Source: Halorarum salinum
GTDB taxonomy: Archaea > Halobacteriota > Halobacteria > Halobacteriales > Haloferacaceae
DNA: 64,000 nucleotides
Direction: 5' to 3'
NCBI RefSeq assembly: GCF_013402875.1
Contig: NZ_CP058579.1
Location: 1,798,001 to 1,862,000 of the forward strand
Below are positions 39,766 through 42,095 of this stretch, piece after piece; the first letter of the stretch is position 1, and each line of letters opens with the position of its first letter. The notes below the pieces were generated by a model that was given only the letters and a program-made list of their open reading frames with translations, was not told the DNA's origin and ran no database searches. The position numbers and the translations under genes were made by a program.

Positions 39766-41082
39766 TCACTCACACTCCCTCCCGGTCGCGTTCCCCGTCC
39801 GCGGGTCGGCGACGTCGCCGGCGGCGACTGCGATCGCCCGGTCGGGATCGAGCTCCCGCGCGTCGCCGTCGGCGGCACACACGAGGATCGCCTCCACCTC
39901 GGCCGGCGAGTACGACCCCCGTTCCCGTATCGACACGACCGTGCCGGCGACGAGCGGCGCGGCGGCGGAGGTCCCGTCGAACCGACCGGCGGCGCTCGTG
40001 TCGGCGTCGTCGTGGACGCTCACGTCCGCCCCGGCGGAACTGTACGGCCGGACCGACCCGGCGCCGTCGACGGCGCCCACGGAGACGACCCCGTCGGCGT
40101 CGGCGGGCGCGACCGCGCTCCCGTCGGCCGCGGTGTGGGCGAGTCGCCGGTCGGCGGCGAAGAGGTCGACGGGTTCGGACCCCGCCTCGCGGGCGTACAC
40201 CGAGACGTAGTAGTGGCCCCGCGGGAGCGTCGCGTCGATCGCCTCCGCGTTCCCGCGTTCGCGGATGGACTTGGCCACGACCGGGTCGTCGCGTCCGGGG
40301 AGGTCCCGGTAGAGGTAGAGGTCGTAGTCGGCCTCGTCGTCCCAGTAGAGCCGGAGCGTCACCTCGCCCGCGACGGCGCCGTCGCCGAGCCTGTTCCCCT
40401 GCGTCCCGTCGTCGAACTCGAGCCACCCACCGGAGTCGGGCGTCCCCCGCCAGTGGCGCCGCGCGTAGTTCCCGGAGGACGTGACGAAGACGGCGTCCTC
40501 GCTCGTCGCTCGCTCCGCGGCCTCGGAGATGCGATCCATCCCCTCGGCCGTCGCCGGGAAGTAGCTCCCCGAGTCGACGACGACGTCGACCCCGTTCTCC
40601 AGCAGCCAGTCCACGGCCCGCTCGTACTCCTCGGCCGAGGGACCGGTGCCGACGCCGACGAGGTACAGCTCCGCGCCGTCGGTCCGGTCAGCGACGATCT
40701 CGGCGACCGCGGTGTCGTGGGCGCCGGCGGCCGGGGAGGCGGGCGCGACGCCCGGCGGGGTCACCCGACTGTACGCGGCGACGCGCCCCGCGAGTTCCGG
40801 GTGGTCGCCGTCGAACCGGCTTCCGATGACGCCGACCCGGACGGCGTCGTCCCCGACGCCCGCCCCGCCGACGTCCGCCGTGCCGGCCGCCGCCGAACCG
40901 TCGACCGAGCCTCCGACCGGGCCGCGGGCGTCGCCGCCGGCGGCGACGCCCTGCGGCGGGGTGACGTCCCCCACGACGCCGCCGATGGGCCCGACGTCCG
41001 GGACGCCGGCCGCGCCGACCATCCCGGTGGTGAGGCCGGCGAGGGTGAGGAGGACGGCGAGCGCGGGCGCGAGTCGGGTCAC
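39766..41082 (-). CDS. Subtilisin-like (S8) secreted protein lacking the catalytic aspartate
   Basis: This 438-residue protein starts with a Sec-type signal (LAPALAVLLTLAGLTTGMVG). The S8 landmarks are a histidine motif AHDTAVAEIVA (His122), an oxyanion asparagine SSGNYA (Asn205) and the serine motif FDGTSAAAPLVAG (Ser372). The aspartate motif, normally VAVIDTG, reads VGVIGSRFDGDHPEL, with Gly87 at the catalytic position. A beta-rich insert at about residues 213-310 (VTLRLYWDDEADYDLYLYRD) resembles a pre-peptidase-like domain. It may be an inactive protease used for binding, unless a nearby Asp compensates. It follows a membrane HTH gene by 54 bases. Confidence 0.8.
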   Translation of the reverse strand: MTRLAPALAVLLTLAGLTTGMVGAAGVPDVGPIGGVVGDVTPPQGVAAGGDARGPVGGSVDGSAAAGTADVGGAGVGDDAVRVGVIGSRFDGDHPELAGRVAAYSRVTPPGVAPASPAAGAHDTAVAEIVADRTDGAELYLVGVGTGPSAEEYERAVDWLLENGVDVVVDSGSYFPATAEGMDRISEAAERATSEDAVFVTSSGNYARRHWRGTPDSGGWLEFDDGTQGNRLGDGAVAGEVTLRLYWDDEADYDLYLYRDLPGRDDPVVAKSIRERGNAEAIDATLPRGHYYVSVYAREAGSEPVDLFAADRRLAHTAADGSAVAPADADGVVSVGAVDGAGSVRPYSSAGADVSVHDDADTSAAGRFDGTSAAAPLVAGTVVSIRERGSYSPAEVEAILVCAADGDARELDPDRAIAVAAGDVADPRTGNATGRECE

Positions 41083-41136
41083 GGCGTCACCGCCCGCCGG
41101 GTCGCGCCCGGCCGCGGGGTCGGGCGGAGGGCGCCA

Positions 41137-41850
41137 TCAGGGACCCCGCAGTCGGTCGGCCGCGAGGACGGTCGCGAGGACGAGCAGGCCGCCACAGAGG
41201 AACCCGAGCCCCGGGGGGAGCACCCCGAGCGCCGCCCCGGCGGACCCGGCCATCGAGTCGCCGACGCGCGGGGCGGTCGCCGGGCCGCCGAGGTCGACGA
41301 CGCCGGCGCCGAACGCCCACTGGACCAGCAGGCTCGCGCCCCCAAGCAGCGCCGCGACGCCGAGGAGCCCCCGGAGCGAGTCGAGCAGGGAGGTCCGGTC
41401 CCCGTCGCCGCCGACGGCGACGACGAGTCGCTCGTCCGCCGGGGCGTAGACGGTCATCTCCCGCCCCTTCACGGAGTAGCGGGTCCCCGCCACCGCCACC
41501 AGGCCGGCCTCCTGCAGGTTCGAGAGGTGGTGGCGGACGTTCTGGACGGACGTGTCCACGACGGTCGCGAGTTCGGAGGCGGTCCGGCGTTCCTCGTGGA
41601 GGGCCGTGAGCACGGACCGGGCCGTCTCCGAGGAGAGCGACCCGATGAGTTCGTCCGCGTCCTCGTCGTCGAGCCAGCAGACGCGGACGTCGTCGCCGGC
41701 CGTCCCGTCCGGCGCGTCGGACGGGGCCGCGCCGCGGTCGGCCGCGCCGTCCGCGACCGACGACCGGTCGCCGTCGCTCCCCTCCACGGGTCCCGAACCG
41801 GCGTCGTTGCCGGCCGTCGAGTCGGTGTCGGACGGGAGCAGTCCTGACAT
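41137..41850 (-). CDS. ArsR-type HTH regulator with C-terminal membrane helices
   Basis: This 237-residue protein has an acidic disordered N terminus (about 1-55). A winged helix follows at about residues 60-125 (SLSSETARSVLTALHEERRT, VQNVRHHLSNLQEAGLVAV). Two hydrophobic helices lie near 145-170 and 205-230. Membrane-tethered DNA-binding proteins of this kind are frequent in haloarchaea and often sit next to secreted proteases. Its position just upstream of the subtilase-like gene suggests a signalling pair across the membrane. An in-frame GTG at 41865 is a possible alternative start. Confidence 0.8.
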   Translation of the reverse strand: MSGLLPSDTDSTAGNDAGSGPVEGSDGDRSSVADGAADRGAAPSDAPDGTAGDDVRVCWLDDEDADELIGSLSSETARSVLTALHEERRTASELATVVDTSVQNVRHHLSNLQEAGLVAVAGTRYSVKGREMTVYAPADERLVVAVGGDGDRTSLLDSLRGLLGVAALLGGASLLVQWAFGAGVVDLGGPATAPRVGDSMAGSAGAALGVLPPGLGFLCGGLLVLATVLAADRLRGP

Positions 41851-42095
41851 GCGGTCACTTTCCACACAGGATGGCTAAATATTTCCGGGTAGTTTCCCGA
41901 CGATTTCGTTGAACAAAATCGCTCCGGTCGAGGGTCCGTCGGTTCGTCAGTCCCGGCCGTCGCCACGGGACGGGCCGCGGTCGACCCCGGCAGCGGTCGG
42001 AGTTCGCCACGGGTTTCGGCGACGCCCACGACGGTACGGAACCGGCCGCCCTACCCGCCCGATTTACGGCGTCCCCCGACGAACAACCGGCACCG

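Follow-up and report, generated by a model that had tools for sequence, protein, structure and literature searches.

In a 64,000-nucleotide stretch of the Halorarum salinum genome (contig NZ_CP058579.1, positions 1,798,001 to 1,862,000, hereafter the window), we detected two adjacent genes encoding a predicted membrane-anchored helix-turn-helix (HTH) protein and a predicted exported subtilase homologue (peptidase family S8) whose catalytic aspartate, Asp32 in subtilisin, is replaced by a glycine, Gly87. Conservation of the pair points to an uncharacterised device for signalling from outside the cell to its interior. Our leading, though tentative, reading is that the two genes form a haloarchaeal membrane signalling module in which a slow or conditional subtilase would engage the outside loop of its partner, in the layout of SREBP and site-1 protease. 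If true, archaea would have a module whose subtilase fold sends its signal by way of a DNA-binding protein tethered to the membrane, an arrangement known best from SREBP in eukaryotes.

The subtilase is a clear S8 homologue (PF00082 Peptidase_S8, 58.4 bits with a cut-off of 21.8). Its segment VRVGVIGSRFD matches the stretch around Asp32 of subtilisin in a gap-free alignment that places Gly87 exactly on Asp32, and the PDB entries that align best are engineered subtilisins altered at residue 32. A sequence-only reading of the window had already put a glycine at the aspartate of the DTG motif and had assigned His122, Asn205 and Ser372 to the S8 catalytic positions; the alignment to subtilisin bears out all of these assignments. 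The Asp-His-Ser triad that marks an active S8 protease is therefore incomplete, with His122 and Ser372 in place and Gly87 instead of the acid. The predicted model (mean predicted local distance difference test score (pLDDT) 85, core above 95) has the fold of subtilisin, interrupted after Asn205 by a beta-rich insert whose strands (approximately residues 210-309) lie between Asn and Ser, as the same reading had proposed. The insert has no family match in Pfam.

The HTH gene lies upstream on the same strand, separated from the subtilase gene by 54 bp, and its product carries two predicted C-terminal membrane helices, in agreement with what had been noted from the letters of the window. The protein scores 50.9 bits with HTH_20 and 37.3 bits with HVO_1552_C (PF24267, cut-off 27), and thus belongs to the PF24267 family. 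It starts with a conserved N-terminus (MSGLLPS) followed by the winged-helix domain and the two hydrophobic helices. The topology was predicted by hydropathy and from the model, where helices at residues 151-186 and 213-234 fit two membrane helices; this agrees with a hairpin carrying an N-terminal DNA-binding domain. Coordinates of both genes and their features are given in Table 1.

Table 1. Features of the HTH-subtilase gene pair (positions in the window)
Feature	Position	Strand	Basis
Membrane winged-HTH protein (HTH_20 + HVO_1552_C), 237 aa	41137..41850	-	Pfam, model
Winged-HTH DNA-binding domain, residues 67-125	41476..41652	-	Pfam, model
Predicted membrane helix 1, approximately residues 158-180	41311..41379	-	Hydropathy, model
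Predicted external loop, residues 180-211	41218..41313	-	Model, partner alignment
Loop motif P194-R-V-G-D198 (all 67 branch-A partners have R-x-x-[DEQ])	41257..41271	-	Partner alignment
Predicted membrane helix 2, residues 213-234	41149..41214	-	Hydropathy, model
S8 (subtilase) homologue, predicted exported, Asp32-less, GTG start, 438 aa	39766..41082	-	Pfam, alignment, model
Hydrophobic N-terminus, residues 1-25 (signal peptide or anchor), then about 50 disordered residues, no propeptide	41008..41082	-	Model, N-terminal comparison
Gly87, codon GGA, catalytic Asp32 position	40822..40824	-	Alignment, codon table
His122 (AHDTAVAE), catalytic His64 position	40717..40719	-	Alignment
Asp123, where Gly65 is normally invariant; only in Asp32-less branch-A members (44/52)	40714..40716	-	Alignment
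D170-S-G-S-Y174, branch-A signature, subtilisin 124-128 (substrate strand)	40561..40575	-	Alignment
Asn205 (TSSGN), oxyanion position	40468..40470	-	Alignment
Beta-rich insert, approximately residues 210-320, Csp jelly-roll-like by position and structure	40123..40455	-	Model, structure comparison
Ser372 (GTSAAAP), nucleophile position	39967..39969	-	Alignment

Homologue searches in the genus, family, order and phylum of the window yielded 124 distinct haloarchaeal and related sequences for a tree, in which the HTH-linked subtilases form one clade of 106 sequences (Shimodaira-Hasegawa-like approximate likelihood ratio test 96). This clade has two branches. A PF24267-type HTH gene is immediately upstream of the subtilase in 67 of the 67 sequences of branch A, to which the window protein belongs, and immediately downstream in 38 of the 39 sequences of branch B, while no PF24267-type HTH neighbor was found for the outgroup subtilases that have the same insert. 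Carriers were identified in Halobaculum, Halegenticoccus, Halogranum, Haloplanus, Halolamina, Halomarina and Halocatena; in the carrier scan of genome contigs, an alignment query gave matches and a single-protein query gave none. The ratio of nonsynonymous to synonymous substitution rates among the relatives is approximately 0.14-0.45. We found no publication on the HTH-subtilase gene pair and no paper for HVO_1552 in a literature of which our coverage was partial.

Asp32 is missing from 52 branch-A sequences, and all 52 have a Gly at this position. They retain His (52/52), Asn (52/52) and Ser (51 of 51 readable rows), and only 50 of the 331 alignment columns are conserved as strongly as these three. 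The glycine is encoded by all four codons (GGC in 19 members, GGG in 18, GGA in 10 and GGT in 5), which argues that it is maintained by selection and not merely inherited. With Gly fixed in 52/52 and the gene pair in 67/67, neither Gly87 nor the pairing is a matter of chance, and both features on which the sequence-only reading was built are conserved.

Sixteen branch-A members keep Asp32: 15 belong to the sister group and come from other families, and the sixteenth, L038, sits within the Asp32-less branch. The basal members of branch A keep Asp32, the loss in the group of L157, L108 and L158 appears to be separate, and branch B mostly keeps Asp32, with a separate change to Gly in L182 and L178/L184. 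The distribution implies several changes of Asp32 across the clade; their direction depends on how the outgroup roots the tree, which was a quick one. In the branch-B sequences L061 and L063, the position is occupied by Val/Ala with His, Asn and Ser kept, a separate loss of the acid that did not lead to Gly. L118, a distant subtilase homologue from a distant archaeal family, aligns with Ser where Asp32 would be, Glu in place of the His and Asp at position 124, possibly an independently rearranged or degenerate active site. Beside Gly87, residue 88 is Arg, Gln or Lys in approximately 15 Asp32-less members and in no Asp32-keeping branch-A member; these are of the Haloplanus type (L032-L050), whose subtilases also have long charged C-terminal tails that are probably disordered.

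A second conserved element is found in the partner. Most branch-A partners carry P-R-[VI]-[GAP]-D in the predicted outside loop, and the looser pattern R-[VIMAS]-[GAPTS]-[DEQ] is present in 67 of 67 branch-A partners compared with 3 of 38 branch-B partners. The PF24267 family is far wider than the gene pair (118 of 146 genomes of the order), and the stand-alone members that were checked differ from the window partner: no subtilase adjoins the few copies inspected, and the loop motif was absent, by eye, from four stand-alone proteins. The family survey also called PF24267 at the window locus, and control searches in Haloferax volcanii gave a PF24267 match and none to PF00082. In the subtilase, the signature D-[AS]-G-S-Y on the substrate strand is fixed in 68 of 68 branch-A sequences. 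Because loop motif and substrate strand are conserved in the same branch, a contact between them is the simplest idea, and we infer from the joint conservation of these two potentially facing surfaces that the subtilase may touch the loop. It is unlikely that the two genes are linked by co-regulation only, with the HTH protein controlling the expression of an exported protease-like protein that it never contacts. Adjacent co-directional genes are often simply an operon with its own regulator, and PF24267 also occurs alone in most haloarchaeal genomes. However, a mere repressor would not need an outside-loop motif conserved specifically in branch A, and branches A and B both keep the genes paired even though two gene orders exist.

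In the proposed mechanism, the exported subtilase would work outside the cell on the loop of its HTH partner. With the loss of Asp32 and, in the branch of the window, of the propeptide, what had been a general protease would have become a dedicated enzyme that is slow or conditional. Proteolysis or the formation of an acyl-enzyme would then take place solely on the prepositioned partner or under a triggering condition. Once cut or clamped, the loop would alter the hold of the HTH domain on DNA. The DNA-binding domain would either be released, in the way that site-1 protease acts on SREBP and possibly with a site-2 protease acting next, or undergo a change in conformation or dimerisation.

The likeness to site-1 protease, itself an S8 enzyme, and SREBP lies in the layout: a non-cytosolic subtilase and a DNA-binding protein on two membrane helices with an exposed loop that carries an Arg motif, here predicted from sequence and model. 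Homology between SREBP and the HTH protein is not claimed. In SREBP, the cleavage site of site-1 protease is an Arg motif, RxxL or RxxK, with Arg needed at P4 (PMC11231238). The branch-A loops have the Arg (67/67), but the residue equivalent to P1 is mostly Asp (R-V-G-D) and thus differs from the RxxL/RxxK pattern, and site-1 protease, unlike the window subtilase, has an intact triad and prodomains.

Several observations weigh against, or lend little to, a subtilase acting on the loop. Some branch-B members also lack Asp32, and the loops of their partners generally lack the motif. The genome encodes M50 (site-2-type) proteases, which speaks for the proposed mechanism, but they are near-universal and their presence is therefore weak evidence. 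When the two proteins were modelled with AlphaFold as one read-through fusion (the TGA stop of the HTH gene read as Gly in the same frame, a modelling device that carries no biological claim), the loop had a pLDDT of approximately 47-56 and no strand docked in the cleft, a low-confidence outcome that counts neither for nor against the contact. Finally, the propeptide is missing throughout the main branch of the window, which is also compatible with a dead enzyme.

The name propeptide is inferred from position, because Pfam does not recognise the domain (no family match). An N-terminal domain of approximately 80-100 residues precedes the core in the sister group that keeps Asp32 and in the L157/L108/L158 group, at the place of a subtilase propeptide. 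A profile of this domain gave strong matches only in these members (best E 6e-35, weakest 1e-11), weak matches in the outgroup (L110, 1e-4) and nothing convincing in the branch of the window or in branch B. The absence of the domain from the branch of the window fits a loss of ordinary protease activity. Branch B lacks it yet mostly keeps Asp32, thus the loss of the domain is not tied to Asp32 alone.

Structure searches (Foldseek and VIA-align) showed that the whole architecture, including the insert, is nearest to the clostridial subtilases CspB, CspA and CspC, which combine a subtilisin domain with a beta-barrel (jelly-roll) insert as the window protein does. The alignment to CspB (Z 27.9, 328 residues across 79-425, root-mean-square deviation (rmsd) 4.0 A) indicates likeness at the fold level only, and identity to the Csp subtilases is approximately 15-17%; plain subtilisins align at Z 28 and an rmsd of 2.1-2.2 A over approximately 221 residues. 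CspB is a protease whereas CspA and CspC are pseudoproteases, and the family therefore has catalytically degenerate members used in sensing. The differences are that CspA and CspC have lost two of the three triad residues where the window protein has lost Asp alone, that CspC keeps an uncleaved propeptide where the window protein and its branch have none, and that the Csp subtilases pair with the spore lytic pathway and the window subtilase with a membrane HTH protein.

The sequence-only reading had described a secreted pseudo-protease paired with a membrane HTH protein that would sense peptides or proteins outside. A true pseudoprotease receptor of this kind, a non-cutting fold that would bind an outside peptide or protein and pass its state to the HTH protein by contact, like CspC and CspA in clostridial spore germination, is a distinct possibility and ranks as a close second to the slow or conditional subtilase. 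In its favor, Asp32 was lost several times in the clade (mostly to Gly, to Val/Ala in L061 and L063), the main branch lacks the propeptide, His-Gly has become His-Asp in 44 of 52 members, and the nearest PDB architecture includes two pseudoproteases. Part of the earlier description stands: Asp has indeed changed to Gly next to the HTH gene, with conservation of both the change and the pairing, the partner is predicted to be membrane-anchored, and the architecture is one with known pseudoprotease sensors. The plain label of pseudo-protease is not supported, since no Asp32-less branch-A member departs from Ser, His and the oxyanion Asn, since the known Csp pseudoproteases lack two triad residues, and since engineered subtilisins with the same Asp32-to-Gly change are conditionally active. 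Branch B mostly has Asp32 and the same type of partner, so the module as such needs no dead enzyme. The natural series of relatives, from members that keep Asp32 and propeptide to members with neither, could show how a protease turns to slow catalysis or to sensing.

A normal protease with a rearranged triad, in which Asp123 (beside His) or Asp170 (at the end of the neighboring strand) replaces Asp32, appears quite unlikely. Asp123 is present in 44 of the 52 Asp32-less branch-A members, in none of the 16 that keep Asp32 and in none of 58 other sequences with a letter at that position, and L038, within the Asp32-less branch, has Asp32 together with Gly123. This pattern is suggestive of compensation for the lost Asp32, though not a universal one, since eight Asp32-less members lack Asp123. 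Asp170 was initially favored as a relocated catalytic Asp, because it is invariant in branch A (68/68) and ends a neighboring strand, and was dropped because it is equally invariant where Asp32 is kept (16/16). In subtilisin, N of residue 31 contacts O of 123 and a water links O of 31 and N of 125 (PMC11593635), which implies that residue 124, the equivalent of Asp170, should lie on the sheet face opposite Asp32. Asp170 is thus probably not a replacement. Asp91 and Asp93, the stand-ins named in the sequence-only reading, were rejected as not conserved (19 and 21 of the 52 Asp32-less members, respectively).

Haloarchaea live in molar chloride. It would be conceivable, though improbable, that Gly87 leaves an empty carboxylate pocket filled by a small anion (molar chloride, nitrite or formate), so that ionic conditions switch the protease on. 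The salt of the hosts, the repeated origin of the change to Gly and the persistence of Gly through all four codons agree with such a rescue. Nitrite activates engineered Asp32-to-Gly subtilisins, and formate and chloride do so weakly (PMC7935941). These enzymes, RASProtease(N) and Protease1(N), share with the window protein both the altered position and the residue that replaces Asp, and their conditional activity, together with the retention of Ser, His and Asn, supports a conditional enzyme in the window. They are designed, nitrite-triggered Bacillus enzymes, whereas the natural protein adds an Asp after the His and the beta-insert. Against the rescue, chloride is a weak activator of the engineered enzyme, Asp123 beside the His could obstruct a site of this kind or take its place, and the Val/Ala of L061 and L063 does not fit. 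Its furthest extension, a naturally evolved ion-gated subtilisin whose triad is completed by chloride (or nitrite) and whose proteolysis of the HTH loop would report ionic conditions to the genome, an archaeal analogue of SREBP and site-1 protease with salt as cofactor, is very improbable. Because Asp32 has naturally changed to Gly more than once in salt-loving organisms, the engineered idea of an anion-triggered subtilisin can be tested directly in nature.

The HTH and subtilase genes share a reading frame in 37 of the 67 branch-A pairs, for example at 41850..39766 in the window, where about a third would be expected. At the same-frame junctions, often no more than the stop codon and 6-9 bases separate the two genes. 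The excess may stem from common ancestry and from uncertainty in the start codons.

Upstream of the HTH gene, a palindrome matching at 9 of 10 positions (CGATTTTGTTCAACGAAATCG) is located at 41901..41921, approximately 60 bases from the start. It was considered as a conserved operator and dropped, as the palindrome at about -60 is not common to the relatives. Nearer the HTH gene, a promoter-like stretch, CGAA-n-TTTA, is common to many relatives.
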